The notes under the pieces were generated by a model. The model worked only from the letters and a program-made list of their open reading frames with translations. It did no database searches and was not told where the DNA came from. Shown here in pieces: positions 11,646 to 45,952 of a stretch of 64,000 bases of DNA. Each line of letters begins with the position of its first letter. Positions within the stretch are counted from its first letter, which is position 1. The stretch spans positions 4,216,501-4,280,500 of the forward strand of contig NC_016940.1 in NCBI RefSeq assembly GCF_000250635.1, written 5' to 3'. Both the position numbers and the translations under genes were made by a program. This DNA is from Saprospira grandis str. Lewin. GTDB lineage: Bacteria; Bacteroidota; Bacteroidia; Chitinophagales; Saprospiraceae.

Positions 11646-11646
11646 T

Positions 11647-11818: not shown

Positions 11819-11835
11819 AAATCCTTAAAAAAAGA

Positions 11836-13082: not shown

Positions 13083-14138
13083 ATGAAATCTGTTTCTGCT
13101 GCCGAATTGGCCCATTTGCTCGACGCTAAAATTGAAGGCGACCCCAATGTTCGGGTCCATAAACCCGCCAAAATTGAGGAGGGCGAGCCTGGTGCCATTA
13201 GCTTTTTGGGCAACCCCAAATACGAATCTTACCTTTATAATTGTGCCTCCTCTATTGTTTTGGTGGGGCTTGACTTTGAGCCGCAGGCGCCAGTTTCGGC
13301 CACCTTGCTGCGTGTAAAAGACGTTTATGCCAGCCTTAGCTTTTTGCTACAGCATTTTCAGGCTGCCCAGGCGGAGGCTCCTGCGGCCCAGCAGATTTCG
13401 CCTCAGGCCGTCATTGATCCTTCGGCAAAGGTTGCAGAAGGTGCAGAAGTGGGCGCTTTGGCCTATGTTGGCCCCAATGTAGTCATTGAGGCGGGCGCAA
13501 AAATTTATCCGCAGGCCTATATTGGCGCAGATGTAAAAATTGGAGCAGGCAGTATCATTGAGCCTGGCGTTCGCATTTTGAAGGGCTGTCAAATTGGCCA
13601 AAACTGTATCATTCATGCCAACTCCGTAATTGGTTCCGATGGCTTTGGCTTTGCGCCTCAGGCCGATGGCAGCTATGAGAAGATTCCACAACTGGGGATT
13701 GTCATTCTAGAAGATCAGGTAGAAGTGGGGGCCAATACGGTGATTGACCGTGCCACCATGGGGCAAACCCTAATTAAGCAGGGGGTAAAGCTCGACAACC
13801 TCATCCAAATTGCTCATAATGTAGAGATTGGGAAGCATACCGCCGTGGCTGCTCAGGCGGGCATTGCGGGCAGCACCAAGGTGGGCGAAAACTGCCTTAT
13901 TGGTGGACAGGTGGGGCTGGTTGGCCACATCCAATTGGCCAAGGGCACAAAAATTCAGGCCCAAAGTGGGATCAACAAGAGCGTAAAAAAGGAGAACCAG
14001 GCGCTCTTTGGCTCCCCGGCTCTCCCTTATAATGATTTCTTGCGCTCTCAAGCGGTCTTCAAGCAGTTGCCCCGCCTCCAAAAAGAGGTCAATGCACTTA
14101 GAAAAGCCCTAAAGGCCCTGCAAGAAAAAGAAGACTAA
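13083..14138 (+). CDS. lpxD: UDP-3-O-(3-hydroxyacyl)glucosamine N-acyltransferase
   Basis: The third enzyme of lipid A synthesis: it adds the N-linked 3-hydroxyacyl chain to UDP-3-O-acylglucosamine. An N-terminal uridine-binding domain comes first (GEPGAISFLGNPKY, about residues 37-50). A left-handed beta-helix of hexapeptide repeats follows (about residues 100-300), then a C-terminal helix. The catalytic histidine lies in LDNLIQIAHNVEIG, and GSDGFGFA matches the acyl-carrier-protein/acyl binding loop. I chose the ATG at 13083 (MKSVSAAEL), which gives a normal 351 residues; an upstream TTG at 13038 would add 15. It converges on the TPM gene, with stops overlapping by four bases. Confidence 0.93.
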   Translation: MKSVSAAELAHLLDAKIEGDPNVRVHKPAKIEEGEPGAISFLGNPKYESYLYNCASSIVLVGLDFEPQAPVSATLLRVKDVYASLSFLLQHFQAAQAEAPAAQQISPQAVIDPSAKVAEGAEVGALAYVGPNVVIEAGAKIYPQAYIGADVKIGAGSIIEPGVRILKGCQIGQNCIIHANSVIGSDGFGFAPQADGSYEKIPQLGIVILEDQVEVGANTVIDRATMGQTLIKQGVKLDNLIQIAHNVEIGKHTAVAAQAGIAGSTKVGENCLIGGQVGLVGHIQLAKGTKIQAQSGINKSVKKENQALFGSPALPYNDFLRSQAVFKQLPRLQKEVNALRKALKALQEKED

Positions 14139-14596
14139 GCCTTAGAAATTTCATCAGGCAATTCGTTCTGATCGTCATCTCCAGCATGTGGAAAATGGGC
14201 CTTGAGTTGCTCGCCAGTTTGTAAAATGGCAGCCTTGAGGCCTTCTAAAAATTGCTTTTTCTGAAAAGCCGTATGCAAATTATCCCGAATTTCATCCCAG
14301 AAATTAGCGGGAACCACCGCATTGATGCCCTGATCGGCCACAATGGCAAATTTGTGCTGCTCATAGGCCAGATAAAACAAGACCCCATTTTGCTGCTTGG
14401 TTTTTTGCATTTCTAGTTCCTTAAAACAGACTAGAGCACGGGCAAAAGCATCTTCTCCCTTAAATTTGGGTTCTACATGTACTCGAATTTCCCCAGAGCT
14501 TTTAGCTTCGGCCTCTCGGATGGCCGCAATCAATTGGTCTTCCTCTTCTGGCTTAAAAAAATGCTTGGGTTGCTTACTTAAGAATGGTATTTTCAT
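14135..14596 (-). CDS. TPM domain protein
   Basis: A 153-residue protein of the TPM (TLP18.3/Psb32/MOLO-1) domain family. Visible features are SSGEIRVHVEPK near residue 33, VLFYLAYEQHKFAIVADQGIN near 80-100 (written with its core FAIVADQGIN), and a final helix. Unlike many relatives it has no signal peptide or membrane anchor, so it is probably cytoplasmic. The ATG at 14596 (MKIPFLSKQP) is chosen because sequence further upstream is GGGGCC repeat. Its exact role is unknown; the family has been linked to phosphatase-like or envelope functions. Confidence 0.78.
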   Translation of the reverse strand: MKIPFLSKQPKHFFKPEEEDQLIAAIREAEAKSSGEIRVHVEPKFKGEDAFARALVCFKELEMQKTKQQNGVLFYLAYEQHKFAIVADQGINAVVPANFWDEIRDNLHTAFQKKQFLEGLKAAILQTGEQLKAHFPHAGDDDQNELPDEISKA

Positions 14597-14618
14597 AGGA
14601 TTATTTTTTTGTTTTTTT

Positions 14619-14738
14619 GGGGCCTCCGCCTCCCTTCGGTCGTCGGCGCTACGTTTCGCAGCTCGCAAGCCTGCTCGGCCCTTCGCCGCCTTCAGCGGCT
14701 CGGTCTGGCCTGCGGCCACTGCTCCACATCGCTAGGCC
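14619..14738 (+). repeat. GGGGCC repeat, plus orientation
   Basis: It starts GGGGCCTCCGCC after a T-run and ends CACATCGCTAGGCC. The variable hairpin is GCCGCCTTCAGCGGC. It fills the gap between glpD and the TPM gene. Confidence 0.85.
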
Positions 14739-14761
14739 AATAGGGCCAAAAACTTTTATAG

Positions 14762-16426
14762 TTAGGCAAAATCTACGGCTTGCATATAGGCTTGTTGTAG
14801 TTCTTGCATTTGCAATTGCAATTCTGAGGGCCCCCAATTAAAGTATTTGAGCATGCGCTGCATCACTTTGGGGTATTCGGCAATAATAGCGGCCCGTTCG
14901 AAATAGAGCTTGCCTGTTCTGCGGATAAAGAAATCGGCCAAACTGCCCACACTTTCGTATTCTAGGGCATATTGCAGCTCGGCAAAGAGCAGGCGATCGG
15001 CTGGATTTTGGACCTCGGCATGTAGGGCAAAGGCATTTTCTAGAATAAGGTCCAGATTGGCCCCATAGCGTCTAGCCAAGCGACCAATTTGCTCTGGGCT
15101 GGCCGAAATCTGCTTGGCCTCTCCCACTCTTAACTGAATAAAGCGGTCAAACTCTTCTTCGCTGGCAAAATCGCCTCCGCTCAAGACCAATTTTTCGGTT
15201 TGGCAGCTGGCTTCGATTCCTAGGCGCTTCACAATTTGGTCCACCACTCTTTCGGCCATTTTGCGGTAGCCAGTCAGTTTTCCACCGGCAATAGAAATGA
15301 GGCCAGAAGAGGCATAAAAAATCTCATCTTTTCTAGACAGCTCCGAGGCCGACTTACCATCTTCATGAATCAGGGGCCGCAAACCCGCCCAAGAAGAGTC
15401 GATATCATCTTCCGTTAGAGGGTGTTCGGGAAACATTTCCTTACAGGCGGCCAAAATATAATCCACATCGGCTTGTTCGCTGCGGGGGCTATCAATGGCT
15501 CCTTTATAATCGGTGTCGGTAGTACCGATATAAGTACAATTCTCTCTAGGAATGGCAAAAATCATTCGACCATCTTGGCGCACATCAAAATAGACGGCCT
15601 GTTGGATGGGCAGGCGCTGCCGATCGACCACCAGATGCACTCCTTTTGATAAATGTAGGCGTTTGCCCTCTACCCCATCGGCATCTTTGGCGCGGAGTTC
15701 ATCCACCCAAGGGCCTGTAGCATTGACTACATGTTTGGCCTTGAGTTCATACTCTTCCTCCAAGATATAATCGCGAATAGCTGCTCCTGTGACTTGTCCA
15801 TTTTCATCATAGGTAAAGTTGAGCATTTCGCTATGATTGAGGGCCAAAGCACCCTGTTCTACGGCCGTTTTGATTAGCTCAATGGTCAGGCGGGCATCAT
15901 CTGTTCGATATTCGTAATACATGGCTCCAGCCTTAACAATACCTTGAGGCAAAAGGGGTTCTGCTGCTAGGGTTTCCTCTTTGCTCAGCATTTGGCGGGC
16001 CTCTGTTTTGTTCACTTTGGCCAGGCGGTCATACACCCAAAGCGCCAAAGAGCTCGACCATTTTCCCAAAGAGCCCTCTTCTATAATAGGAAGGAGCATT
16101 TTTTCGGGCCGAACAATATGACGGGCATTATGGTGTACAATGGCTCGTTCTAGGCCCACTTCACGGACCAAGCCCAGCTCCAATTGCTTAAGATAGCGCA
16201 AACCGCCATGAATAAGCTTTGTCGAGCGACTGCTGGTTCCCCAAGCAAAATCATTTTTTTCGACCAATACCACCGAAAGTCCTCGGCTAGCGGCATCTAG
16301 AGCAATGCCGGCCCCAGTGGCCCCACCACCAACCACTAAAAGGTCGTAGGTTTTATCATGCGTAGTTAATAAATAACGGGCGCGTTCTTTTACAGAAAAT
16401 TTATGAGTAGACGTTTTTGGCTGCAT
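14762..16426 (-). CDS. glpD: Aerobic glycerol-3-phosphate dehydrogenase
   Basis: A FAD enzyme at the membrane that oxidises glycerol-3-phosphate to dihydroxyacetone phosphate and feeds electrons to quinone. The FAD-binding GGGATGAGIALD begins at residue 33, SRSTKLIHGGLRYL (about 66-79) is a family signature, and HVVNATGPWVDEL follows in the middle. SIAGGKLTGYR lies near residue 375, and the C-terminal GlpA/D helical domain follows. The length of 554 residues is normal. No glycerol kinase or facilitator gene is adjacent. The next gene upstream (STAS regulator) is divergent. Confidence 0.94.
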   Translation of the reverse strand: MQPKTSTHKFSVKERARYLLTTHDKTYDLLVVGGGATGAGIALDAASRGLSVVLVEKNDFAWGTSSRSTKLIHGGLRYLKQLELGLVREVGLERAIVHHNARHIVRPEKMLLPIIEEGSLGKWSSSLALWVYDRLAKVNKTEARQMLSKEETLAAEPLLPQGIVKAGAMYYEYRTDDARLTIELIKTAVEQGALALNHSEMLNFTYDENGQVTGAAIRDYILEEEYELKAKHVVNATGPWVDELRAKDADGVEGKRLHLSKGVHLVVDRQRLPIQQAVYFDVRQDGRMIFAIPRENCTYIGTTDTDYKGAIDSPRSEQADVDYILAACKEMFPEHPLTEDDIDSSWAGLRPLIHEDGKSASELSRKDEIFYASSGLISIAGGKLTGYRKMAERVVDQIVKRLGIEASCQTEKLVLSGGDFASEEEFDRFIQLRVGEAKQISASPEQIGRLARRYGANLDLILENAFALHAEVQNPADRLLFAELQYALEYESVGSLADFFIRRTGKLYFERAAIIAEYPKVMQRMLKYFNWGPSELQLQMQELQQAYMQAVDFA

Positions 16427-32389: not shown

Positions 32390-33784
32390 TTAGTTTAATA
32401 GCTTCACGGCAAGCTTACCTATAAGCTCTGTTAGTTCATTTTCAAACTCTCGAGTTACATCATGAAAATTGGTTTTCGCATGCACTAACTCATGCATTAA
32501 AGTACCTGCAAAACATTCGAGTGAGTCCAATGCCTTTACTGAAATAACAATATTATCCTCTAGTGGATCCCAACAGCCCAAAGTATTGTCTTCTGAGATA
32601 GTTTTCCTCATAGTTTTAGACAACTTAATTTCTCTTACTCTTTCTGGCAGCCCCCCATACAAATCAACAATTTCAGCTAAAAAGCTCCATATGTACTTTT
32701 TCCTTTCCGATAGCTCATCAGCCTCACAAAATTCAAAAGAAAAGCTCTCATTATACGCCGATAAAAAGTTTTCTAAGCTAGTAATAGCATTTCCAGAGGC
32801 ATCTTTAACATTGTCAATCTTCGCCTTCAAATTTTTAGGAATAACAATAAGCGACCGCCCTTCATTTTTGGCATCATCAATAATACTTGTATTGTTAACT
32901 ACCTCTTCATTTGTAACAAAAATATAATCGCCCAAAGCATTTAAAGTACTGATAGCATGAATCTGTACGTCTACCCAACTCAACTCGTCAAATGATTCAT
33001 TTTCACTTAGACGTTTAAGGTCATTTGCTAACAAAAAAGCGGCAATCCTTGAATTTGATTTTTTTAAGATCCTCTTTATTGCTTCAGTGTAAGCACTGCG
33101 CCCTACATTTGTTCTTTCTCGATTAAGTGACTTTCTAATTTTTGCATCTAGGTAGGTTATATTATAACTAAATAAAAAGTTAGCCTCTTCCGCAACCTTT
33201 ACACCATTTATATAGATATATGATGCGTCGTTTTTAGTGTCTCGCCCAATAATATCTCCTTTAGATGTTGACTCAATCAAACTACTTTCAGTGAATCTCA
33301 AAAAAAGTTGTTTGGCTTTCTCCATATCCTCATCCGCCAACCCTTTCAATATAAACTCCGTCCCTTTCATATCAGGGAACTTAGCTGGGCCTATCACTGC
33401 ATGTAGAGTTGTAACATCGCCAAATTCTCCCTTAGCTAATCGCGCTGTACGGAAACTTTGATGCGATGAATTTATTTCAACATCAATAGAATTTCTATCT
33501 AAAGTAGCCAAGGCATCCTTTAGTCCAATACCAAAATTCCCTATTACCTTAGGGTGTTTTTGCTTTTCTTGATTTTCATTTTGAGTCAAATGAAAGTAGT
33601 TAAGTCCTCGACCAAAATCTCTAATACACCAAGCTCCATCAGGTCTTTTAAAGATCTTTATCTCCTCAGTATCTGTCAATAGTTCCTCATCTAAAGCATT
33701 CGCTATAATTTCTCTTACAGCATGTGCAGGTTCCCAACTCTCTAGGATCTTCTCAATATTTAAATCAAATTTTTTCTCTGTCAT
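32390..33784 (-). CDS. GHKL ATPase fused to HExxH metalloprotease-like domain
   Basis: The N-terminal half is a GHKL (Hsp90/MutL/histidine-kinase-type) ATPase. The N-box is AVREIIANALDEE (E25, N29, D32), the G1 box is RDFGRGL (about 55-61) and the G2 box is GNFGIGLKDAL (82-92). The C-terminal end carries HELVH at 431-435, followed by H441 and the TREFENELT glutamates, a pattern of zinc metalloproteases. I used the ATG at 33784 (MTEKKFDLNI); an ATG at 33823 would add 13 residues. The gene is AT-rich and lies downstream of the hsd operon. A defence role is inferred from position only; the family is otherwise annotated just as ATP-binding protein. Confidence 0.8.
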   Translation of the reverse strand: MTEKKFDLNIEKILESWEPAHAVREIIANALDEELLTDTEEIKIFKRPDGAWCIRDFGRGLNYFHLTQNENQEKQKHPKVIGNFGIGLKDALATLDRNSIDVEINSSHQSFRTARLAKGEFGDVTTLHAVIGPAKFPDMKGTEFILKGLADEDMEKAKQLFLRFTESSLIESTSKGDIIGRDTKNDASYIYINGVKVAEEANFLFSYNITYLDAKIRKSLNRERTNVGRSAYTEAIKRILKKSNSRIAAFLLANDLKRLSENESFDELSWVDVQIHAISTLNALGDYIFVTNEEVVNNTSIIDDAKNEGRSLIVIPKNLKAKIDNVKDASGNAITSLENFLSAYNESFSFEFCEADELSERKKYIWSFLAEIVDLYGGLPERVREIKLSKTMRKTISEDNTLGCWDPLEDNIVISVKALDSLECFAGTLMHELVHAKTNFHDVTREFENELTELIGKLAVKLLN

Positions 33785-33897
33785 ATCTGTTTTTATTTGT
33801 GTTAGTAATTTACGCTTTATCATCTGATATTTCTCAAAACTTCCCTATTTATTACTATCCATAAGTATTATATTATATGTTTTGAAGCTGCTGTTTT

Positions 33898-33931
33898 GGG
33901 GCCTCCGCTGCGGCTTCGCCGCCTGCTGGAC
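33898..33931 (+). repeat. Truncated GGGGCC repeat
   Basis: Only the first part of the unit is present (GGGGCCTCCGCTGCGGCTTC and a few bases more). It is preceded by a short T-run and lies between the GHKL gene and the sorting-domain lipoprotein. Confidence 0.7.
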
Positions 33932-34506: not shown

Positions 34507-37500
34507 CTAAATATTCCGCTTAATCGCCTCTTGCTCCACATAGCGCTTCAGCCCATCAATAATGGCTTGAGCAAAACCTTCATCTTGTACAAACTTCCGA
34601 TAGAGCTGAATATCCAGTTTGCGATGATGCGTCATGACCTCTTTCATAATTTTATCGAAAGCCATATCCCTATTCTGTGCATCGGGATTTTCCATAACCT
34701 TATCCTTATAATCTGGGTGGTTCAAAATGCCCTCTCCAAAAGAGGCAAAACGAATCCGCTGCTCCTCTGGGGTAGCCCCCCAATCCTTAAACCAGCGCTC
34801 ATTAAACATCCTCAAGATTTCTTCTAAAGTATCTTTTTCCTCTTCTTCATGAGCTCCTCTGGGGTTGGCATTCTGAGGTTTTAGGCTAGTTTCCTCTGCA
34901 TCCAATTCTATTTTATGATTGAGCTTTACGCGCTCAATACCATAAGTAGACAAATCTACGGCATCCAATAAGCTGTCTAGCTGGTCCTTATCTTTATTCC
35001 TAATGACCATCTTGGGAATAAGAAACTTTAAGAACCAAAATAGCTGCTCCCAATTCAAACGGCTATAATCCATATCCATATCCATAATTGAAGCCAGTTG
35101 CCCATAAATCTTAACAAACTGCTTGGCCTTAATTTTATAGTCTGCTTTTTCTTCATCGGTAAGTTCTAGCTCCTCATTAAAACGATGAGCTGCCTGGTCT
35201 ATAATTGGACTCAATAGCTGGGCATCAGCATTATCAAAGAATAAATTAGTAAACTCCTTTACTTCGGCCAGTTCATATACCCCAGGGTCTTCTAGATGGT
35301 CCTTTAACTCATGTAATATATTCACATCTGTAGCCTCAGACAAACTGGTTGCGGTATAAAAATCATCAAAGGCTTTTTTGATGTCTTCTGTACTATTAAA
35401 GAAGTCCAATACAAAAAGATCTTCGGTCTTCTTGCCCAATTTATTAGCCGAGCGATTCAGACGCGATAAAGCCTGTACCGCCAAAACCCCTTGTAGCTTT
35501 TTATCAATATACATACTACAAAGCTTGGGCTGATCAAAACCTGTAAGGTACTTGTTGGCCACAATCAATATCCGATATTCATCCATATCAAAATAACGGG
35601 CAATCTTATCACTGATGTAGTCTGGGTCCGAAGACTTTGCCCGATCTAATTCGGCAGGTAAATAGTTGATCTGCTCTTCTGTATACTCTATACCCTTCAA
35701 CATTTTTTTACCAGAAAATGCAACCAATATCCTGAAGGGGTTCCCCTTTTGCTCCAACAATCGCTGCATGGCCTGATAATATAAAATAGCCGCCTCAATG
35801 CTCTGCGTTAAGACCATCGCCTTGCCTTTCCCCTTTAACTTCCGCTTCGCCTGCACTTGCTCCATAAAATGATTGAGCATAATCTCGGCCTTGGTCGCTA
35901 TTGTCCGCTCTTGCCGCTCTACATACTTCCGCAATTTCTTTTGCGCCTTTTTGGTATCAAAAAGGGGATTCTCCGCTATAGATTTTTGTAGCTCATAGTA
36001 GCTCTTGTAGGTCGTGTAATTGGCCAAAACATCTAAAATAAAGCCCTCCTCTATGGCCTGCTTCATAGAATACAAATGAAAAGGCTTAAAACTCCCATCT
36101 GCCTGCCGAACCCCAAACTTTTCTAGGGTCGAGTTCTTTGGCGTAGCCGTAAAGGCTAAATAAGAAACATTCTGCCGCATCTTACGGGAAGACATCAAAT
36201 CAAATAGCTTGTCCTGAGCATCGCCCAAGCTATCATCTGTTTTGGCAAAAGTCATATTCATTTTGTCTGCAGTGGTCCCCGTCTGTGAACTATGCGCCTC
36301 ATCTATAATTACCGCAAACTGCTTCTCATTCATCTGACTAATTCCCTCCAAAACAAAAGGAAACTTTTGTATGGTCGTAATGATAATCTTTTTCCCCAGC
36401 TCTAATGCCGCCTTCAAATCTGCAGAGCGATAAGCTGGAGCAACAATGTTTTTGACCTGAGAAAAACTCTTAATGTTCTCCCTAATTTGCTTATCTAATA
36501 AACGCCGATCCGTTACCACAATAACCGAATCAAATAAAGGCCTTTCCATTCCTCTAAATCCCCTAACATTTTCATGCTTAGGGTAGGTCTCTATCAACTG
36601 ATAGGCCGCCCAAGTTATAGAGTTGGATTTTCCCGAACCCGCCGAATGCTGAATCAAATAGGTTTTTCCCAGGCCTTCCGCTTCTATATCCGCCACAATC
36701 TTACGAACCACATCCAACTGATGAAAACGAGGAAAATATAAGGTCCGCTTGTTTAATGCAGTCGTTCGCTTGCCATCAAAGCGCACAAAATGCTGAATCA
36801 AATTGGCCAAACTCTCCCGCTTGAAAATTTGCTCCCACAAATAGGCGGTTTTATGCCCAAACTCATTAACGGGATTCCCCTTGCTTTGCCCATTCCCCTT
36901 ATTAAAAGGCAAAAAGAAGGTCCCTTTACCCGCCAAACGAGTAGTCATATAGACCTCATCTGTATCGACCGCAAAATGAACCAAACAACGACCAAATTGC
37001 AAAAGCGGCTGCCGTATATCTCGGTCTTCTCTATACTGTTTTTGCCCATGATAACGAGCATTCTGCCCCGTCCAAGGATTCTTGAGCTCCATCGTAATTA
37101 TAGGCAGACCATTTACAAAAATGACCATGTCTATTTCCTGTAAGGGCTTATCTAGTGAATAACGCAATTGCCGACTCACACTAAACTCATTTTGCTCAAA
37201 CTGCTGCCGAACTCTTTTCCCACTACTCGCTAAGGGCAAGGGATACAATAACTCAAAATGCGCATCATCAACATCTAGCCCTTTGCGCAACAGTTCTAAA
37301 ACCCCATATTTCTTGATGAGCACATTCAAGCGATGAAGGATCTTTAATTCCCCATCCGACCGCTTGCGCAGCTTGGCCAACTCCTCGGCCTGACTGCTTT
37401 CTAAGAAATGCCAAAAACGCCGCTTGTCTATGGCCCATTTTGCATCATAATCATTAGGGTCCCCTATATAAAACCCATTGCCCGAACGGTAGTGGATCTC

Positions 37501-37617
37501 CCCCTCCGCCATCTGCTGGGGCGCATAACCCTGCGCTTTCAGCTCCTCTAAATTACTACCCGTTAAGGCTTTTTCTATGGCCGCCTCTAAGGCCTGTTCA
37601 TTCGTCTTGCTTGGCAT
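34507..37617 (-). CDS. hsdR: Type I restriction enzyme, R (motor/nuclease) subunit
   Basis: HsdR pulls DNA past the enzyme with an SF2 helicase motor and cuts it. The PD-(D/E)xK nuclease site is seen as EIDMVIFVNG...TMELKN (D163, E177, K179). The Walker A motif is AGSGKS (326-331) in YLIQHSAGSGKSNS, the Walker B is VIIDEAHSSQTG, and motif III is YLAFTATPKNSTL. The C-terminal part is the helical domain that binds the methylase core. The length of 1036 residues is normal. The first 22 coding bases plus 13 bases before them also occur exactly at 38122-38156. It lies 17 bases after the 137-aa gene. Confidence 0.95.
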   Translation of the reverse strand: MPSKTNEQALEAAIEKALTGSNLEELKAQGYAPQQMAEGEIHYRSGNGFYIGDPNDYDAKWAIDKRRFWHFLESSQAEELAKLRKRSDGELKILHRLNVLIKKYGVLELLRKGLDVDDAHFELLYPLPLASSGKRVRQQFEQNEFSVSRQLRYSLDKPLQEIDMVIFVNGLPIITMELKNPWTGQNARYHGQKQYREDRDIRQPLLQFGRCLVHFAVDTDEVYMTTRLAGKGTFFLPFNKGNGQSKGNPVNEFGHKTAYLWEQIFKRESLANLIQHFVRFDGKRTTALNKRTLYFPRFHQLDVVRKIVADIEAEGLGKTYLIQHSAGSGKSNSITWAAYQLIETYPKHENVRGFRGMERPLFDSVIVVTDRRLLDKQIRENIKSFSQVKNIVAPAYRSADLKAALELGKKIIITTIQKFPFVLEGISQMNEKQFAVIIDEAHSSQTGTTADKMNMTFAKTDDSLGDAQDKLFDLMSSRKMRQNVSYLAFTATPKNSTLEKFGVRQADGSFKPFHLYSMKQAIEEGFILDVLANYTTYKSYYELQKSIAENPLFDTKKAQKKLRKYVERQERTIATKAEIMLNHFMEQVQAKRKLKGKGKAMVLTQSIEAAILYYQAMQRLLEQKGNPFRILVAFSGKKMLKGIEYTEEQINYLPAELDRAKSSDPDYISDKIARYFDMDEYRILIVANKYLTGFDQPKLCSMYIDKKLQGVLAVQALSRLNRSANKLGKKTEDLFVLDFFNSTEDIKKAFDDFYTATSLSEATDVNILHELKDHLEDPGVYELAEVKEFTNLFFDNADAQLLSPIIDQAAHRFNEELELTDEEKADYKIKAKQFVKIYGQLASIMDMDMDYSRLNWEQLFWFLKFLIPKMVIRNKDKDQLDSLLDAVDLSTYGIERVKLNHKIELDAEETSLKPQNANPRGAHEEEEKDTLEEILRMFNERWFKDWGATPEEQRIRFASFGEGILNHPDYKDKVMENPDAQNRDMAFDKIMKEVMTHHRKLDIQLYRKFVQDEGFAQAIIDGLKRYVEQEAIKRNI

Positions 37618-37633
37618 CTTTGTTTTGTTTGTT

Positions 37634-38047
37634 TTAAAAGTACTCTTGAAGCAGAAATAGAACTATTTCTCCCATCAAGCTCAATGTCCGCTGTATAGTT
37701 AGAGAATCATGTATACGAACAATCCCTTTTCGCTGCTCATATCGAAATTGCTCCTCTGCGCTCAATACTCGATAATCTGCCTTCGCATAACTTACCCAAT
37801 CATCATATCCAATCTTATGCTTAGCAAAGCCAGCCTCTAAACCTGGATTATCTGTCACAGGCTTTACATCCTCTAGCAACACAGCAATTGCCAAAACAGT
37901 AAAGCCCCTAGTCACAAGCATATAATCGCCCTTTTTGGCGGTTTCCCCCCCACTAGGATGATTCAAAACAATCCCCTCTCCTAGAATATACTCATAAAAG
38001 TCAGGGGCATCTGCCCCCCACTTCGTTCCTAATTTCCAAATGTTCAT
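37634..38047 (-). CDS. Accessory protein, homologous to N-terminus of the slot ATPase
   Basis: A 137-residue soluble protein. The pattern MNIWKLGTKWG...YEYILGEGIVL and GDYMLVTRGFTVLAIAVL suggests a small alpha/beta domain, possibly PUA/EVE-like, but this is uncertain. Its C-terminal part EEQFRYEQRKG and HDSLTIQRTLSLMG (98-126) lines up with EELFRYKSR and DDSTIKKILELG (89-116) of the AAA ATPase at 39035. The N-terminal MNIWK also resembles MRFWS there. It is thus probably a stand-alone copy of that sensor-like domain. It sits between hsdR and the ghost hsdS end, in the slot of the hsd operon. Confidence 0.72.
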   Translation of the reverse strand: MNIWKLGTKWGADAPDFYEYILGEGIVLNHPSGGETAKKGDYMLVTRGFTVLAIAVLLEDVKPVTDNPGLEAGFAKHKIGYDDWVSYAKADYRVLSAEEQFRYEQRKGIVRIHDSLTIQRTLSLMGEIVLFLLQEYF

Positions 38048-38081: not shown

Positions 38082-38156
38082 TTTCCCCTACTCCCCCAAA
38101 CACATACGCCCGCAATACTAAGTTCATTCGTCTTGCTTGGCATCTTTGTTTTGTTT
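38082..38156 (-). other. Ghost hsdR-start / hsdS-end junction (recombination scar)
   Basis: Bases 38122-38156 are an exact 35-bp copy of 37596-37630 (hsdR start with its leader). Bases 38082-38111 are an exact 30-bp copy of 41367-41396 (hsdS end with its stop). Ten bases (38112-38121) separate them. On the minus strand the order is HNH stop, ghost hsdR start, ghost hsdS end, 137-aa gene. Confidence 0.92.
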
Positions 38157-38863
38157 TAGCGTAGTTCTTTAAATCTCTTTTTTAGAAAAAAGATAAGCAT
38201 GCCCTGAAAAGCCGTATAACGACCATTTTTAGGCTGCTCTAGCTTGGCTAACAGATCTCTAGCATAGTCTTCAGCTGTTTCCCATGACTTATTTCGCTGA
38301 TCATAGCGATCTATCTTTCTACTTAATACATCCCAAGCCTGCTTACGAAGCCGAACTAAGGTCTGCGCATTTAACTTGAGCGTTTCCTTCAATTCCTTGT
38401 CTATGTTTGGATCTTTTGAGCTGATCGCCCCTCTATAATTATATCTAATATTAAATCTGCGCTCCTCATCCTTTTTTCTGATGCTAGCAGGATTAGGAAT
38501 ATACTTTAATTCCGTATTTCCCTTAGCACTATCGCAAAAGCGATCTTTCCCATCTAAATCTTCTCCCCCCTTACAAGCCGCAAACAGGTTGTTGTAGTCT
38601 GTGACTTTATCCGGATAACCATCCTGTGACTCAAAATGCTCAATCTTCATCTTTAGGTCCGTGCTCCCATCCTCATACACTCGCTCCTCTATGCTGTTCA
38701 TACAATAACAACAAAGATAACCCTGCTCTGCCAACAAGGAATCCTTTAGCACGGCCCCCACTTCCTTTTTTAAGTCCTCAAAGTCTGGACTTGCCGTTTT
38801 TCGTCTTAGTTCTTTATAGCCCTCTATTACTTCTGCAGAAGGCCTTTTGTTTATCTGTTTCAT
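38156..38863 (-). CDS. HNH nuclease, TIGR02646 / PtuB-like
   Basis: A 235-residue protein of the TIGR02646 HNH group, the kind that serves as the nuclease PtuB in Septu and in some retron systems. The zinc and active-site elements are GYLCCYCMNSIEE (C51-C54), KIEHFESQ (H76), DYNNLFAACKGG (N91/N92, C97) and FCDSAKGN (C110, K114). The C-terminal half is helical. The partner ATPase lies upstream, separated by a GGGGCC repeat of 145 bp. The stop codon overlaps the ghost hsdR leader. The expected role is cutting of nucleic acid once the ATPase is released or activated. Confidence 0.86.
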   Translation of the reverse strand: MKQINKRPSAEVIEGYKELRRKTASPDFEDLKKEVGAVLKDSLLAEQGYLCCYCMNSIEERVYEDGSTDLKMKIEHFESQDGYPDKVTDYNNLFAACKGGEDLDGKDRFCDSAKGNTELKYIPNPASIRKKDEERRFNIRYNYRGAISSKDPNIDKELKETLKLNAQTLVRLRKQAWDVLSRKIDRYDQRNKSWETAEDYARDLLAKLEQPKNGRYTAFQGMLIFFLKKRFKELR

Positions 38864-38883: not shown

Positions 38884-39028
38884 GGCCGCCGCAAAGGAGC
38901 GCAGCGACTGGCCTAGCGATGTGCAGCAGTGCGGCCTAGCCGCAGACCAAGGCCGTTAGGCCGCAGGGCCGAGCGAACAGCGAGCTGCGGAACGTAGCGC
39001 CGCAAGGCGAAGCCGCAGCGGAGGCCCC
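38884..39028 (-). repeat. GGGGCC repeat inside the defence operon
   Basis: A minus unit whose GGGGCC end (39028) is 7 bases from the ATPase stop. It separates the ATPase gene from its HNH partner, so it is probably transcribed within the operon. Confidence 0.85.
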
Positions 39029-39034
39029 AAAATA

Positions 39035-41290
39035 TTAGTTCTCTAATTCCTCTTCTGCTAGCTTAAGCGCAAAATTCAATTTAAACATATCCGCATCTCT
39101 GGCGGGCAGTTTTAAAGCTTCTATTCGCTGCCTTGCCTCAGCCAAACTCTCGGCATTCTCCTCCTCTATTAAGGCAAATATGGCATCTATTTCTTGGGTC
39201 ACTTCCTCATCTCGCTGCTTAACCCCCATCCACTCTAAGAAAATATCGGCAATGTCCCGACCATAAGTGAAGTTGATCTCCCTAGGCGCTTTGGCCGCTT
39301 CTTGCCCCCCAATAGGCGAATCCAAAATGTATACCTTGGCCGTCTCCCCATGAGCCTCTAAATAACTGGCCACCAAAGGCGAATGCGTGCTCACAATAAA
39401 CTGCGCCCGAGGAAACTCCTCCGCTAAAGCATCTAAGATCTTGCGCTGCCATTTCGGATGCAAATAGGTGTCGATCTCATCGATCAAGACAATAGCTGGG
39501 TATTCATAAAATTCTGCATCATAATCTGCCGACTCATACAAGCGCCGAATCAAACGCCCCACCCAAGCAAATACATTCCGAAAGCCCTGACTAAGCAGAT
39601 GAAAGGGTACTTTCCGCCCCTCTAACTGCAACCAAATCAAGTTTTCTTGATGCTCTACCTGAAGGAGCTCTACCTGCTGCTCCAAAATCTTAGACAATAA
39701 GCTAAAGATGAAGGTTAATACCGCCCCCTCATTATGTCCATTATTTTTATGACTATCTGCCTCCAAGTCTTTGATCCACTCCCCTAAGGCCGCATAGCGA
39801 TTCTGATCCCTATTATAAATCAGGCTACTCACATCATTAAAGTTTGGCGCTAAGACCTTCTTGGGCTCATGATCGTCCTTGCTGCTGCCGGCCTGCAATT
39901 GCGGAAAACCCAAGAGCAAATGCTTGTATTGACTAAGGCCCGCCGCTAAGCCAAATGAATCCCGCTCTATCTGCATGCTATTATGTGCCCCAACAAAAAA
40001 CATCCCAGCCTCCTTGCTGAACTCTACTTTATTGCGGTAGTCTTGCTCTAGCTCATAATCTACGGTAATCTTGCCCCGATAAGGATGCTCCAAACGATAG
40101 GTTCCCGTTTCTGTGTCAATCCGAAGCAAGCGCTGTATTTCCTTTTCTCGAAGATCTAAGGCGGGATTATCATCAATCCCCACTAAGCCCAAGGCCAAAG
40201 CCCGCAATACCGTAGACTTTCCGCTTCCATTATGCCCCAATAAACAGATGATCCGACTGCTTAAGTCTAACTCCAAACGCTCAAAATGTCCTATGTTCTC
40301 TAAGACTAAGCGCTGCAAGCGAAAATGCTGCTCTTTTCTGGGCGGCAAACTTGGGGCGCTGCTTGGGGTTGAGTCAGGAATTAGCTCATTAAAACTATTG
40401 TAACGAAGGCTCTTTCGATATGGCATGACCTTAGCCAACTGCCGCTCAAAAAATTCTTGCGGAATAAAGCCCAAATTCCCCAAGGGGCTCTTCTTATGCT
40501 GCTCTAGCAACAAAAAGGCATCTATGGTTTCTTTATCTCCATCTACAAAAGATTGCAGCCAAACAGAAAAATTTCCTACCTCATATTCTTTCTCCCAATA
40601 GCCGCCTTTTCCACCCTCCTTAGAGTTATACTGCATCCCCCCTAGCTTTACTGCCAACTTTTTAAAGAAGGCCGCTTTATTCATATTATCGCTAGCCGAA
40701 AGAATTAACTTAATATCCCCCATGAAAGTTATTTCCAAGTAGATATTAGGCCTTTTGGCCAATAGATCATCTCCCATCCAAAAGGAGATGATACAATTAT
40801 CTTTATCCCCCAAAAAGAAATAACCCTTTTTGAGCATATTCGCTGTATTTCGAGCCCGTAAGCGAAAGTAAAGAGAAGGCTGCTCTTTTCTTAAAAAGTT
40901 TAAAGTCGATAGTGCAGATCTAGATATAGATACGCTTTCCCTTCCTAGTTCGAGTATTTTTTTGATTGTTGAATCATCGCTAACTTCTTCAAACGTATAC
41001 CTAGACTTATATCTAAACAGTTCTTCAGGATTGAATATTTTAATTCTTGTAGGCGTTGACAGATACTTATTGAGCTTGGGAAGCTTATCAAAATACTCGG
41101 CCTCTTCAAATTCCTGAATAAAATCTCCTGTAATTTGAGCAAGTGCCATAGCCTCACCATAATCCCCGATAAGAATCCAAAAGTCTTCCTTAGAAACTAA
41201 TTCATTTAGTTTTTGGGGATAAACAATAAATTCTGCCTCTATGAACAAATCGAGAAGCTCATCACCTACCTTAACACTCCAAAATCTCAT
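39035..41290 (-). CDS. AAA ATPase, PtuA/OLD-like, with extra N-terminal domains
   Basis: The C-terminal 430 residues are an ABC-type AAA_21 ATPase as in Septu PtuA and OLD proteins. Walker A is GHNGSGKST (352-360), the signature-like motif is LLSQGFRN (565-572), Walker B is IVLIDEID (600-607) with YLHP, and the H-loop is STHSP (634-638). Unlike usual PtuA, about 325 residues precede it. Residues 1-120 match the 137-aa slot protein, residues about 125-300 form an unrecognised domain, and a Ser/Pro linker (305-318) follows. The extra domains may be the sensor. It begins 82 bases after the hsdS stop, in the same direction. Confidence 0.84.
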   Translation of the reverse strand: MRFWSVKVGDELLDLFIEAEFIVYPQKLNELVSKEDFWILIGDYGEAMALAQITGDFIQEFEEAEYFDKLPKLNKYLSTPTRIKIFNPEELFRYKSRYTFEEVSDDSTIKKILELGRESVSISRSALSTLNFLRKEQPSLYFRLRARNTANMLKKGYFFLGDKDNCIISFWMGDDLLAKRPNIYLEITFMGDIKLILSASDNMNKAAFFKKLAVKLGGMQYNSKEGGKGGYWEKEYEVGNFSVWLQSFVDGDKETIDAFLLLEQHKKSPLGNLGFIPQEFFERQLAKVMPYRKSLRYNSFNELIPDSTPSSAPSLPPRKEQHFRLQRLVLENIGHFERLELDLSSRIICLLGHNGSGKSTVLRALALGLVGIDDNPALDLREKEIQRLLRIDTETGTYRLEHPYRGKITVDYELEQDYRNKVEFSKEAGMFFVGAHNSMQIERDSFGLAAGLSQYKHLLLGFPQLQAGSSKDDHEPKKVLAPNFNDVSSLIYNRDQNRYAALGEWIKDLEADSHKNNGHNEGAVLTFIFSLLSKILEQQVELLQVEHQENLIWLQLEGRKVPFHLLSQGFRNVFAWVGRLIRRLYESADYDAEFYEYPAIVLIDEIDTYLHPKWQRKILDALAEEFPRAQFIVSTHSPLVASYLEAHGETAKVYILDSPIGGQEAAKAPREINFTYGRDIADIFLEWMGVKQRDEEVTQEIDAIFALIEEENAESLAEARQRIEALKLPARDADMFKLNFALKLAEEELEN

Positions 41291-41372
41291 AACTATTGCC
41301 TATTTGTTCCCAGTAGTCGCCTACCAGAAGGTTTCTATTCTATTTCGGTCCTTAAATATAAGTCTTTTTCCC

Positions 41373-42665
41373 CTACTCCCCCAAACACATACGCCCCCGA
41401 ACAACCTCATCAATCAATACCTCCCGATACTCCCGCAAAGCCTTTATCCCCTTACGCTGATCCAATACCGCCCGAGCCGTCTTACTCACGACCTCATCTA
41501 TAATATTAGAAATAAAGATTTGCTCCTCCATTGGAGGTAATAACAATGGTAATTGTTTAAAATCTTCAAACCGTATATCCCACTGACCAATCCGAACACC
41601 ATATGAGATGCGATTGTACTCAGATATATATTTTTTACACCTAAGTAAATTATGTAAATATCGAGAATAAATTTTTGACGTATCAACCTCACATGTAATA
41701 TAGGCAGGACTCACAATTCCTTTATAATTACTCACCCCCATAGATCCTTGCCATGCTTTCATTTTGTTAATGACAAAATCTCCAGGTTTCACTGCTTTAT
41801 AGGTAGATGTATCTAAAGAAGTGGCATTATGATTATCATCTCGAGATGACTTTGGAATCACTCCATACTCACGATAGACAGATAAAACTTCATAATCAGG
41901 ATGTCCCTTATCACTTTTCAGTTGCATTAAATCCCTGATTTTCAAAACCTCCCAACTCTCCGGAATCTCCCCCAACCAAGCTACCCCCGAATCCTTCATC
42001 TCTACCCCACTATCCAAACCCTGACTCACCGCCCGCTGAATCACAATCTGCTGCCGCTCTTCCAATAAGGCGATCATCCGCTCCTTTTGCGCTATGGCCA
42101 AATCAATCTGCGCACACTTCTGATCTAAATAATCCGCTATGCGACGCTGCTCGGGAAGAGGGGGGATGGGCATAAATGAATATGAAAGCTGAGGGTAGCT
42201 AATATTTTTCCCTTCTCTAATACCTACAACTGATGTTTGTAACTCAGAGATAAAAGTTGGACTCTTAAACAAATACTTATAATAACCATCCTCAATTTTT
42301 CTTCTAGCTCTAAGTACAGTGTAAGCAGGACTAATAATACCATCATGATGACAATACTCTAAGCCACCTTCAAAAGATCTTAAACTAATGGCAAAATCAC
42401 CTTTAGCAATAAACTTGAAAGACTCTAGGTTTCCTGAAGGCATGACCATCCTCGTTGCTACCCATGATCTAGGAACAACTCCTTGACTTTGTGTTACAGA
42501 TAACAACTCTGCCTCTGGTTTACCTTTCTCTGAATAATCCTTAAAAAGGTACTTCATCTTCACCACCTCCCAATGCGCGGGAACCTCCCCCAACCAATCT
42601 ACCCCACTATCCTTATAGGCCGAATAAACGGCCTTTGTTGTTTTTTCCTTTTCAATCACTATCAC
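41373..42665 (-). CDS. hsdS: Type I restriction enzyme, specificity subunit
   Basis: HsdS reads the two halves of the target site and docks the methylase and motor subunits. Two target-recognition domains are each introduced by a copy of the conserved repeat: DSGVDWLGEVPAHWEV (about residues 18-33) and DSGVAWLGEIPESWEV (about 227-242). Each ends in a helical spacer: PPLPEQRRIADYLDQKCAQI, and PPMEEQIFISNIIDEVV. The GTG start abuts the hsdM stop. The C-terminal region is copied as a 30-bp ghost at 38082-38111. The 430 residues are a normal length. The recognised sequence cannot be predicted here. Confidence 0.93.
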   Translation of the reverse strand: MIVIEKEKTTKAVYSAYKDSGVDWLGEVPAHWEVVKMKYLFKDYSEKGKPEAELLSVTQSQGVVPRSWVATRMVMPSGNLESFKFIAKGDFAISLRSFEGGLEYCHHDGIISPAYTVLRARRKIEDGYYKYLFKSPTFISELQTSVVGIREGKNISYPQLSYSFMPIPPLPEQRRIADYLDQKCAQIDLAIAQKERMIALLEERQQIVIQRAVSQGLDSGVEMKDSGVAWLGEIPESWEVLKIRDLMQLKSDKGHPDYEVLSVYREYGVIPKSSRDDNHNATSLDTSTYKAVKPGDFVINKMKAWQGSMGVSNYKGIVSPAYITCEVDTSKIYSRYLHNLLRCKKYISEYNRISYGVRIGQWDIRFEDFKQLPLLLPPMEEQIFISNIIDEVVSKTARAVLDQRKGIKALREYREVLIDEVVRGRMCLGE

Positions 42666-45008
42666 TTATACCAACTTTAAAATTTCTGCAATCAATCCAT
42701 CGCTTTCTGCTTCTAGCGTTCTGATCTCCTGACTCACTTCTTCTAGGGAGCGCAAGGGCTGATGACGATAAAAATATTTGTTGAAGCTAATCTCATAGCC
42801 CAGCTTTACGCTATCCAGATTGATCCAAGCCTCGGCAATATGCGGACGCACTTCCTCTAAGAAGTAGCTATGAATCTCTTCCTTTAAGGGAATGTTTTCG
42901 CTATCTCTCAAGCTGCTTTCGCTTTCATACTCCAAGTATTCGCCCGCCTTTCCGCTGGGATAATAGCCAAAGTCGGGCAGCTGCTCTAGCGTACAACCCA
43001 AATGAGCCAATAAGTTTGTTAGCTTTTGGCCGCTCAACTTCAAGCGGCGCTTAATGACCTTTTCGGCCTTGGCATCATAAGTACTTACTGCCGAATAAAT
43101 GGCCTTTTTCTCTGTGGCCGATAGCTTTAGCCCCAAGGCCTTGATCTGCTTTGCTAGCGCTGCTACAAACTGATTGAAATCAAAATAGACCTGCTCCCCT
43201 ATGGCCTGCATCAACTGCTGGGCCGCAGCATAAAGGGCCTGCCCTTTTTCCCAGCCCTTGGCGGTGGTTAAGGCCGTTTTTTGCTTGGCCGACAAAGAAA
43301 TGCCCTCCGCCTCACAATAGGCCAAAAGCGCTTTCTTATGCTGCCCCAACTGCTGATAAACATCCTCCCCAAATTCGGCATAGGCCCAACGCATAGGCGC
43401 TTCTAAACCTCGCTGATAAAGCAGACTTTCAATGGCCTCCGCACTAAATTTAGCCCGCAAACGCTGTGGCCGCTCTATATTGACCTTATAATAGCCAAAA
43501 TCCTGGTTCTCAAAAACCTGAGCCGCAATGCCCTCTTCTCCCTGCCGCTCTACAGTCGCCAATTCCTGATAAACCGATAGAATCTCCCCAATATGCGCCT
43601 GCGATAACTCACAGTTCTTATCTCCCAAGTTCTTACGCAACTTCTGATACAACTGACTCGCATCAATCAACTGTACTTTGCCGGCCCGCTCTGCCGACTT
43701 CCGATTGCTCAACAACCAAATATAGGTCGTGATCCCCGTATTGTAAAAGAGGTTGTTGGGCAACTGTATAATCGCCTCCAAATAATCTTGCTCTATCAAA
43801 TAGCGACGGATATTGCTCTCTCCGCTGCCCGCATCGCCCGTAAACAAACTCGAGCCATTATGCACAGAAGCAATCCGAGAGCCCGTAGGACTTTCGGTCT
43901 TCATCTTGCTCAACATTTCCATCAAAAAGAGCAACTGCCCATCAGAAGAGCGGGGCGTAGCCGCCACAATTTCTTCTTTCCCCCAATAATCTTTGAGCGG
44001 CACTAAAAAACGAACATCGGTGCCATCTACACCATCAATATACTTCTTCTCCGAGCTCCAAGACTTGCCATAGGGCGGATTAGAGAGCATAAAATCAAAC
44101 TGCAAACCCGCAAACTCATCGGTAGATAAGGTAGAGCCACTGCGGATATTTGCGGGGTCATTCCCCTTAATCATCATATCCGACTTACAAATCGCATAGG
44201 TTTCATCATTGATCTCTTTGCCAAAGAGGTATACATCATGATCCGTACAACGGATTTCCCCCTCCTCATCTTTCACAAAATTCTGCGCCTCGGTCAGCAT
44301 CCCCCCCGATCCACAAGCGGGATCATAAATCGTCATCACCTTGGGCAAGGCCTCCTTAATCGGCAAAAAGACCAAACGGCTCATTAAATCAATGACCTCT
44401 CTGGGCGTAAAATGCTCCCCCGCTTCCTCATTGTTTTCCTCATTAAACTTCCGAATCAACTCCTCAAAGACATAGCCCATCCCCAAGTTAGTCAAAGCGG
44501 GCAGCTTATTCCCCTCAGGGTCTAGCTTATCCTGATTGGTCAGGTTAATACCAGGCGATATAAACTTCTCCACCACCGCCAGAAGCACATCCTTATTCAC
44601 CATATGGCGAATTTGCGCCCTGAGGTTAAACTTCTCAATAATCTCCTGCACATTTTGGCTAAAGCCCAGCAAGTACTCCTCAAAATTGGCCAACAACAAC
44701 TGGGGGTTATTACTTGTCCGCTCATAGAACCGTTGCAAGGTCCACGTACTCGTATTATAAAAAACATAGCCCGAAGCATGCTGCAAAGCATGCTCATCCC
44801 AATCCACCAACTTCATCACCTCCTTCTGAAAATACGCCTCTTCCAAAACGGCTTCCTTTGTATCTTCCAACAAAGCATCCAAACGCCGCAAAACCACCAT
44901 GGGCAAAATCACATCACGGTACTTTCCACGCACATAAATATCTCGCAAACAATCATCTGCAATAGACCAAATAAAGGACACCAATTTATTATGAACAGCT
45001 GTATTCAT
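42666..45008 (-). CDS. hsdM: Type I DNA methyltransferase, M subunit
   Basis: HsdM methylates adenine in the target site using S-adenosylmethionine. The SAM-binding motif is DPACGSGG (229-236), the catalytic motif is NPPYGKSW (310-317), and an N-terminal HsdM_N helical domain precedes them (about 10-150). At 780 residues it is longer than the usual 500-550. The part after about residue 560 is a Gln/Ala-rich helical extension ending in the HRQPLRSLEEVSQEIR region, seen in some longer relatives. It is the first gene of the operon hsdM-hsdS-ATPase-HNH-137aa-hsdR. Confidence 0.94.
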   Translation of the reverse strand: MNTAVHNKLVSFIWSIADDCLRDIYVRGKYRDVILPMVVLRRLDALLEDTKEAVLEEAYFQKEVMKLVDWDEHALQHASGYVFYNTSTWTLQRFYERTSNNPQLLLANFEEYLLGFSQNVQEIIEKFNLRAQIRHMVNKDVLLAVVEKFISPGINLTNQDKLDPEGNKLPALTNLGMGYVFEELIRKFNEENNEEAGEHFTPREVIDLMSRLVFLPIKEALPKVMTIYDPACGSGGMLTEAQNFVKDEEGEIRCTDHDVYLFGKEINDETYAICKSDMMIKGNDPANIRSGSTLSTDEFAGLQFDFMLSNPPYGKSWSSEKKYIDGVDGTDVRFLVPLKDYWGKEEIVAATPRSSDGQLLFLMEMLSKMKTESPTGSRIASVHNGSSLFTGDAGSGESNIRRYLIEQDYLEAIIQLPNNLFYNTGITTYIWLLSNRKSAERAGKVQLIDASQLYQKLRKNLGDKNCELSQAHIGEILSVYQELATVERQGEEGIAAQVFENQDFGYYKVNIERPQRLRAKFSAEAIESLLYQRGLEAPMRWAYAEFGEDVYQQLGQHKKALLAYCEAEGISLSAKQKTALTTAKGWEKGQALYAAAQQLMQAIGEQVYFDFNQFVAALAKQIKALGLKLSATEKKAIYSAVSTYDAKAEKVIKRRLKLSGQKLTNLLAHLGCTLEQLPDFGYYPSGKAGEYLEYESESSLRDSENIPLKEEIHSYFLEEVRPHIAEAWINLDSVKLGYEISFNKYFYRHQPLRSLEEVSQEIRTLEAESDGLIAEILKLV

Positions 45009-45090
45009 TTTCTTCTTTCTCTGATTAACAATAACTGCGAATATAATATAATATTTCGCTTGTCCTGCCTATCCTTCTTCATCTCTTTTT

Positions 45091-45230
45091 GGGGCCTCCG
45101 CTGCGGCTTCGCCTTGCGGCGCTACGTTCCGCAGCTCGCTATTCGCTCGGCCCTTCGCCGCCTAGGGCGGCTCGGTCTGGCCTGACGGCCACTGCTGCAC
45201 ATCGCTAGGCCTGCGGCCCTTCGGGCCTGC
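45091..45230 (+). repeat. GGGGCC repeat, plus orientation, upstream of hsdM
   Basis: It starts GGGGCCTCCGCTGCGGCTTC and contains the variable hairpin GCCGCCTAGGGCGGC. It ends with CACATCGCTAGGCC. The hsdM promoter must lie in the 80 bases between it and the start codon, or further up. Confidence 0.83.
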
Positions 45231-45485
45231 TATCTGGGCCTTTGGCCTGCGGCCATGGGCTGCAGCTTAAAAGCCGCAGCCAGATTAGGATCCAATGAGC
45301 TAACGCTTTATGGGGTCCATGGCCTGCAGCTTAAAAGCCGCAGGTCCTGAAAAACCTAAGTCCCTGCCTTCTATCTTAGAAGCAGGGGCTTTTAAGCTCC
45401 TGCGGCGAGCAAGATGATGGCCCAACCGGATTGGCTGCGGCCTTTAGGCTGCAGATGGCGGCTTTGCCGCCATGGCCGAAGGCCA
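45231..45485. repeat. TTAAAA foldback unit
   Basis: This is the same unit as in 1655-1865, 17830-18060 and 47090-47360. CAGCTTAAAAGCCGCAGG occurs twice on the left and CAGGGGCTTTTAAGCTCCTG on the right. It ends with GGCTTTGCCGCCATGGCCGA. Confidence 0.78.
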
Positions 45486-45493
45486 AAAAGCCC

Positions 45494-45952
45494 ATCAAAA
45501 CCTTTATGCCCTATTCTGTAGCTGCAGAATACCCCATCAAAACCTTTACGCCCTGTTCTGCAGTTGCAGAATACCATATCAAAACCTTTATGCCCTATTC
45601 TGCAGTTGCAGAACACCATATCAAAACCTTTATGCCCTATTCTGCAGTTGCAGAATACCATATCAAAACCTTTATGCCCTATTCTGCAGTTGCAGAACAC
45701 CATATCAAAACCTTTATGCCCTATTCTGCAGTTGCAGAACACCATATCAAAACCTTTATGCCCTATTCTGCAGTTGCAGAACACCATATCAAAACCTTTA
45801 TGCCCTATTCTGCAGTTGCAGAACACCCCATCAAAACCTTTATGCCCTATTCTGCAGTTGCAGAATACCATATCAAAACCTTTATGCCCTATTCTGCAGT
45901 TGCAGAACACCCCATCAAAACCTTTATGCCCTATTCTGCAACTACAAACTAA
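45494..45952. repeat. 42-bp tandem repeat array, 11 units
   Basis: Units start at 45494 and then every 42 bases up to 45914. The unit is ATCAAAACCTTTATGCCCTA + TTCTGCAGTTGCAGAA + CACCAT, with small changes (AACACC or AATACC; CATATC or CCCATC). Each has the hairpin TTCTGCA-GT-TGCAGAA. The first two units and the last are diverged. Confidence 0.93.

Follow-up and report, generated by a model that had tools for sequence, protein, structure and literature searches.

In the type I restriction-modification (RM) operon of Saprospira grandis str. Lewin two blocks of accessory genes (X and Y) lie between hsdS and hsdR, and at the seam between the blocks a copy of the hsdR start stands back to back with a copy of the hsdS end. 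The explanation that we consider quite probable is that an hsdS-X-hsdR allele and an hsdS-Y-hsdR allele of the operon were joined in a slot for exchangeable cassettes, with the stacked blocks and the seam as the product. The observations at hand are the repeats themselves, a sister form that carries X only, the varied content of the slot in other operons, a second seam in another genome (G226), three slots with a single misplaced copy and a pattern resembling gene conversion. Misplaced copies of hsd gene ends are called ghosts below, and the copies at the intact gene boundaries are called true.

Genes of the operon and the seam between its blocks

The window (the whole stretch of DNA analysed, 64,000 nucleotides) belongs to a genome of two contigs and 4,400,185 bases (G000). 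All genes of the operon are on the minus strand, in the order hsdM, hsdS, PtuA-like ATPase, PtuB-like HNH protein, Y and hsdR:

42666..45008, minus strand: hsdM, type I methyltransferase, 780 aa (PADLOC MTase_I, 4.5e-261; Pfam N6_Mtase, HsdM_N)
41373..42665, minus strand: hsdS, specificity subunit, 430 aa (PADLOC Specificity_I, 5.6e-116; Pfam Methylase_S)
41367..41396, minus strand: true 30-nt repeat, the last 24 nt of hsdS including the stop plus 6 nt (repeat search)
39035..41290, minus strand: block X gene 1, PtuA-like ATPase, 751 aa (PADLOC PtuA, 1.8e-54; Pfam AAA_21)
38156..38863, minus strand: block X gene 2, PtuB-like HNH protein, 235 aa (PADLOC PtuB, 9.5e-58; no Pfam match)
38122..38156, minus strand: ghost hsdR leader and start, 35 nt, 100% copy of 37596-37630 (repeat search)
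38112..38121, minus strand: filler separating the two ghosts, 10 nt
38082..38111, minus strand: ghost hsdS end, 30 nt, 100% copy of 41367-41396 (repeat search)
37634..38047, minus strand: block Y, 137-aa protein (35-39% identity to five homologues in the alignment; no Pfam match)
37596..37630, minus strand: true 35-nt repeat, the hsdR leader plus the first 22 nt of hsdR (repeat search)
34507..37617, minus strand: hsdR, restriction subunit, 1036 aa (PADLOC REase_I, 4e-41; Pfam HSDR_N, T1R_D3-like)

Read along the minus strand, the seam consists of the ptuB stop, the hsdR leader with 22 nt of hsdR, 10 nt, the hsdS end and the gene for the 137-aa protein, and the first base of the ghost leader is shared with the ptuB stop codon. 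The two exact, back-to-back copies that had been reported from the letters alone were thus recovered at their positions, identical at 35/35 and 30/30 nt and 10 nt apart. The composition-based chance expectation for such exact matches within the 12-kb region was 2e-10 (30 nt) and 2e-13 (35 nt), and 60 shuffled versions of the slot contained no exact match longer than 12 nt for the hsdR start or 13 nt for the hsdS end. The coding remnants are short (22 nt of hsdR and 24 nt of hsdS). Beyond its 30 nt the ghost hsdS end continues into weakly similar leader sequence, and a blastn alignment against a genome of the same genus (G002) that includes the 30 nt extends over 61 columns (84%, 9 gaps). The supposed equal distance of both blocks to a true or ghost hsdR start did not hold, as the spacing from stop to ATG is 12 nt for the ghost ATG and 16 nt for the true ATG. 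One AAAC unit (4 nt) is missing from the ghost leader, and the true leader is of the type found in G002. Such a difference would be expected had X and Y arrived on separate alleles; slippage could also explain it.

The genes hsdM, hsdS and hsdR are open and run in one direction, which meets the criteria for type I RM, and X meets those for Septu genes with an adjacent PtuA-family ATPase followed by a PtuB-family HNH protein. On sequence evidence X is a Septu-like PtuA-PtuB pair; its anti-phage activity was not assayed, and a defence role of X, as of Y, is an inference. Assignment of X to the PtuAB of retron Ec78 type was rejected, with scores below the NCBIfam equivalog cut-offs (PtuA 136.9 bits vs 500; PtuB 87 vs 150). 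The space between ptuA and ptuB (38885-39032) holds a GC-rich repeat that is also present on both sides of the hsd operon (~45086-45211 and 33894-33920), and dozens of matches to the stretch upstream of hsdM were found in related genomes; the repeat is a possible site of PtuB exchange. Further upstream of hsdM (45392-45952) the window carries a tandem-repeat ORF region with FCNCRIGHKGFD units, and at the equivalent position a genome of the same species (G451) has a repeat ORF with a different unit. Downstream of the operon (32390-33823) a 477-aa protein showed a weak match, below cut-off, to a sacsin-type ATP-binding domain.

Homologues of Y are rare, being found in 3/395 genomes of the phylum (one weak), 8/396 of the order (one weak) and 10/395 of the class, the window's own genome included in each count. 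Matches with E-values below 1e-10, other than those of the window and of G770, lie inside open frames of at least 399 aa. The Y-domain ORF adjoins a McrC-like ORF in G102, G746 and G597 (judged by eye), and in G597 the Y domain is followed by EVE and AAA_5 Pfam domains. The McrB-like gene of G597 stands directly after hsdR, in an operon (L184) with an ATPase-HNH pair between hsdM and hsdS, so that hsdM, ATPase-HNH, hsdS, hsdR, the McrB-like gene (Y domain plus EVE) and the McrC-like gene form one run (5008-15986) in which three defence systems stand together. Going by these alignments, Y is a free-standing protein related to a domain of McrB-like proteins. It was rejected as McrBC type IV restriction, having 137 aa, no Pfam match and one domain only in common with McrB-like proteins. 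Searches for EVE, PUA or ASCH kinship gave no Pfam match and a best solved-structure profile match with an E-value of 0.12, and a fold prediction without alignment reached a pLDDT of 38 and was not used. By analogy with the EVE and ASCH proteins discussed below, and without fold evidence, Y is inferred to be a domain that recognises nucleic acids, possibly through modified bases.

Homology of Y to the N-terminal domain of PtuA was likewise not accepted (BLASTP E-value 0.14; profile comparison probability 64%, E-value 6.5e-5), and the Y profile against the whole of PtuA gave a probability of 1.2% and an E-value of 0.043; PtuA kinship is left as a weak lead. When PtuA residues 1-320 were searched in 298 genomes of the order 6 matched, with the five matches outside the window starting at residue 120 or later; the PtuA N-terminal domain was hence not found again among these genomes. 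Searches for Y gave no match in plasmids and none that was confirmed in two scans of viral contigs.

The hsdS-hsdR slot in related operons

Two locus samples were compiled: sample 1 with 89 loci (80 found by scanning bacterial and archaeal genomes and nine regions of relatives) and sample 2 with 60 regions from genomes of the phylum. Loci were counted if hsdS and hsdR were both on the piece (127/149), and the 22 lacking either gene were dropped. The gap between hsdS and hsdR measured less than 150 nt in 48 operons, 150-299 nt in 2 and at least 300 nt in 77 (43 in sample 1, 34 in sample 2). These counts are based on automatic ORF and profile calls; one locus (L120), which the script took for a filled slot, is in fact ordered hsdS-hsdM-hsdR, and two loci with identical hsdR and empty slots (L155 and L290) are probably one operon counted twice.

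Pfam scans covered chosen proteins from the 27 of 43 filled sample-1 slots with clear ORFs, not every slot protein, and each of the 27 had at least one match at an E-value of 0.001 or lower (in L163 only below the Pfam cut-off). GmrSD was found in five slots (L093, L101, L104, L114, L129) and DarT or a macro domain in another five (L118, L131, L137, L138, L154), SLFN_AlbA_2 was the main slot gene in six (L100, L106, L108, L127, L134, L148), and PDDEXK_3 was present in two (L099, L132). Single slots held AbiEi/AbiEii (L116), HicA with PIN (L156), RhuM (L136) or an ATPase followed by a protein matched by the PtuB profile (L115). Two adjacent modules, DarT-macro and AAA_21-DUF4276, share the slot of L131 (5381-8998), and the slot search with hsdR start and hsdS end detected no ghost between them. 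Judged by its predicted genes the slot is modular, with varied contents of which many belong to defence families, and this part of the original prediction is borne out by the 77 of 127 same-family operons with a gap of at least 300 nt.

Among 60 related genomes 28 had an HsdR match at an E-value of 0.001 or lower in the first search, and in eight, the window's own included, the match was strong (best E-value below 1e-190). The genome of the same genus (G002) has the order hsdS-PtuA-PtuB-hsdR without Y and without ghosts, and the end of its PtuB gene directly abuts an hsdR leader of the true type. Other slots contained one large ATP-binding protein (G020, L035; Pfam NOV_C, PADLOC TmtA 1.6e-204), an ORF just before hsdR with a GmrSD_N match below the Pfam cut-off (G004), a RhuM-like gene (G055) or a GxxExxY-type gene (G047), the last two named by eye only; G022 and G034 have no gap between hsdS and hsdR. 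The hsdR gene is split into two ORFs in L035 of G020 and in L095. In the genome of the same species (G451) the seam region was unmatched, and three ORFs of 1046-1140 aa (L089, 3793-13710) replace the hsd operon beside the same neighbour genes; compared with the window, this position is a variable island.

Of the two single-cassette forms that had been anticipated, the X-only form was thus found, in G002, and the Y-only form hsdS-Y-hsdR was not, as the window's slot was the only one in the two locus samples to match the Y profile. The closest approach to it is in G770, where a Y homologue that stands alone immediately follows hsdR in another type I operon. The outcome named in advance as refuting, that the three accessory genes always occur together, was not seen, since G002 has PtuA-PtuB without the 137-aa gene and without ghosts.

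Amino acid identity between the window and G002 is 96% for hsdM, 46% for hsdS, 73% for PtuA, 35% for PtuB and 98% for hsdR; at the DNA level hsdM and hsdR are 96-97% identical and a neighbouring chromosomal stretch of the window 88%. In HsdS, stretches of up to 100% identity are interspersed with stretches of 17-27%. PtuA has a conserved ATPase core (92-100%, residues 307-666) between an N-terminal flank of 20-37% (residues 1-116) and a C-terminal flank of 11-27% (from residue 707), and PtuB varies between 22 and 47% in 40-residue bins, with 0% in the short last bin. Parts of the cassette thus appear to have been exchanged inside conserved frames. The mosaic of the PtuA-PtuB cassette resembles the pattern of the HsdS recognition domains. 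The last residues of Y (SLMGEIVLFLLQEYF) are similar to the tail of the G002 PtuB (SFAPMVVYLLKSEYL), with agreement at 11/12 nt through the stop; this short match may mark a further seam, at which Y replaced an older PtuAB cassette.

In each of the 43 sample-1 slots the search used the operon's own hsdR start and hsdS end, along with at most six control segments. Coding remnants were accepted in the window (both), L099, L156 and L162. The L099 remnant is an hsdS end (82% over 60 nt) that encodes the HsdS C-terminus and sits directly between a helicase gene before it and a PDDEXK_3 gene after it; that of L156 is an hsdS end (88% over 43 nt) and that of L162 an hsdR start (85% over 115 nt). Control segments gave no match in the 43 slots. 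Ghosts were found in 1/34 sample-2 slots, L279 of G226, which carries both, and one control segment matched in this sample (Rmid2 in slot L271, 24 nt, E-value 4e-5). Candidates not accepted were a palindromic dispersed repeat (L132), tandem repeats (L149, L092), a non-coding leader only (L134), an hsdS stop with leader and the start of the first slot ORF, which is not hsd coding sequence (L116), and a weak match of 76% at R+121..+196 (L150).

Outside the slots the boundary coding segments matched once in 804 kb of sample-1 sequence (L137, 32 nt, 87.5%), which was counted, and a match in L113 was the start of its own hsdS and was not; there was no boundary-segment match in 22 hsdM-hsdS gaps and nothing matched in 520 kb of sample-2 outside sequence. 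Ghosts therefore occur in 5/77 slots (174 kb), compared with 1 match in the 1,324 kb outside them; five or more of the six would fall in slots with P = 1.2e-4. With the window omitted as the starting point the count is 4/76 slots (P = 7.7e-4), and with the ambiguous slots L149 and L150 added P is 2e-6. The back-to-back pair is present in only two operons of the counted sample. Since 72/77 filled slots have no accepted ghost, the majority of cassettes either come in or are maintained with no such mark, or the mark has decayed.

A second seam and the origin of the join

G226 belongs to another family of the same phylum as the window. The order in its operon is hsdS, a block of three ORFs (one with NB-ARC and TPR), a ghost hsdR start (279 nt, 82%), 3 nt, a ghost hsdS end with leader (79 nt, 92%), an AlbA_2 gene and hsdR. 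The ghost and true hsdR of G226 differ at 8, 7 and 34 sites in codon positions 1, 2 and 3, with 27 codons differing synonymously and 14 altering the residue; since 34 differences are in third and 15 in first or second positions, the ghost diverged while it was still part of a functional gene, as would be expected if two alleles were joined. The recurrence of the seam in G226 is the strongest support for the joining of two alleles.

The same join is present in G261 (L281), whose contig ends inside the ghost so that hsdS is not seen, and which was excluded from the slot count. With 4/30 differing sites omitted for fitting neither state, the G261 ghost has the true-hsdR state at the first 15 counted sites and the ghost state at 10/11 of the remaining ones, the break lying between sites 127 and 133, and 5/200,000 shuffles were equally ordered. 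These sites are most simply explained by gene conversion between the ghost hsdR and the true one.

Under the joining of two alleles, the hsdS-hsdR gap of this operon family would be a slot for exchangeable cassettes, many of them defence genes, and alleles hsdS-X-hsdR and hsdS-Y-hsdR would have met in one cell. Incoming DNA comprising the hsdS end, Y and hsdR would have recombined homologously in hsdR on one side, and its other end, within the end of hsdS, would have been attached to the resident hsdR some 22 nt past the ATG, with no homology at the join. The product would be hsdS - X - (hsdR start and hsdS end) - Y - hsdR, an intact operon with two cassettes and the seam. The order of events and the homology-anchored illegitimate join are inferred. 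Both seams are joins without visible homology, with fillers of 10 nt (window) and 3 nt (G226), as would fit homology-facilitated illegitimate recombination, in which the anchored side leaves no trace. The recombination through flanking hsd sequence that was originally proposed fits in outline, but the join itself is without homology and has a filler. The window's genome has ComEC and DprA family matches, which makes uptake of DNA plausible, though not shown.

The same end product could have come from whole operons in tandem, for instance after single-crossover integration of hsdS-Y-hsdR, by a deletion from early in the first hsdR to late in the second hsdS. We hold this possible only tentatively: it yields the identical final order, ghost order and fillers, yet none of the 149 loci contains two whole hsd operons in tandem (duplicated hsd matches were split genes or an extra hsdM), an argument that is weak since the flanks were limited. 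Whether homology-anchored joining or tandem-operon deletion took place remains open, the two being inseparable from sequence. That the repeats are no scars at all and instead functional leader elements (for translation or re-initiation, for example), copied since each block requires them, is very unlikely. The ghost hsdR copy does begin at the ptuB stop and include the leader, and the mini-ORF from the ghost ATG stops (by eye) just before Y; however, the copies contain hsdR and hsdS coding sequence, PtuA-PtuB of G002 occupies the same slot without them, and ghosts elsewhere vary in length.

A site-specific, integron-like system that inserts blocks at fixed ends would account for X and Y each starting after TAGGGGAAA and ending ahead of a similar leader, but neither the retained hsdR (22 nt in the window vs 273 nt in G226) nor the filler is constant between the two seams, and we give this idea hardly any credence. 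Chance or an assembly error can practically be dismissed, as the expected number is ~1e-10 and the same type of seam occurs in G226 and is shared with G261.

Relation to known systems and meaning of the seam

The papers compared here were available in part, and the comparisons extend no further than those parts. Closest in position is DarTG2 between hsdS and hsdR in a type I RM operon of enteropathogenic E. coli (PMC12255303), where defence genes lie exactly in the gap as in the window; the available text describes one cassette, and no stacking, remnant or comparison of single and double forms. TgvAB, a GmrSD-like pair within the type I RM operon of Vibrio cholerae VPI-2 that protects against phages with modified DNA (PMC11411939), is also a defence pair inside a type I operon, with a different cassette and, in the portion seen, no seam. 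EcoprrI with its embedded PrrC (PMC3874165) and the rlo/mlo intervening ORFs of Campylobacter jejuni hsd loci (PMC5183652) are likewise accessory genes within hsd operons, whose route of acquisition is, unlike that considered here, not traced in the accessible parts of those papers.

For the orphan immunity gene arrays of the V. cholerae T6SS homology-facilitated illegitimate recombination has been proposed (PMC5361080). As is inferred for the window, a homologous anchor is combined with an illegitimate join and older modules are kept; the modules there, as far as the partial source goes, are of effector-immunity type, whereas in the window hsd genes would serve as anchors and the operon remains whole around the two cassettes. 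Stand-alone EVE and ASCH proteins have been linked to type I RM systems (PMC7641849) and are, like Y as conceived here, small recognition-domain proteins beside hsd genes. Unlike the EVE proteins of that partly available source, Y has no Pfam EVE match, and the McrB-like relative in G597 carries the Y domain plus EVE.

No description of the seam of hsdR start and hsdS end was found in the open-access literature, most subscription papers being outside the scope of the search. Already known are the slot, which has been suspected in print, and this type of recombination in other systems; new are the seam, its recurrence and the conversion-like pattern.

Extra defence genes in type I operons are known, and how they enter and accumulate is not traced in the compared papers, to the extent that these were available. 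On the reading favoured here the seam is a physical record of one step of gain, with two alleles head to tail and the operon intact, and genomes can be searched for an hsdR start with an hsdS end immediately behind it in order to count such joins. It also predicts that cassette loss should be as clean as gain. That the seam works as a reversible switch between cassette states is rather doubtful at present; the conversion-like pattern of G261 suggests that such direct repeats do recombine. If the switch were real, recombination would cleanly remove Y when it joins the two hsdR starts, and just as cleanly X when it joins the two hsdS ends, leaving an intact single-cassette operon either way, and populations should hold X-only and Y-only cells. 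Operons of this family would then be able to stack, test and shed defence modules with restriction unbroken.
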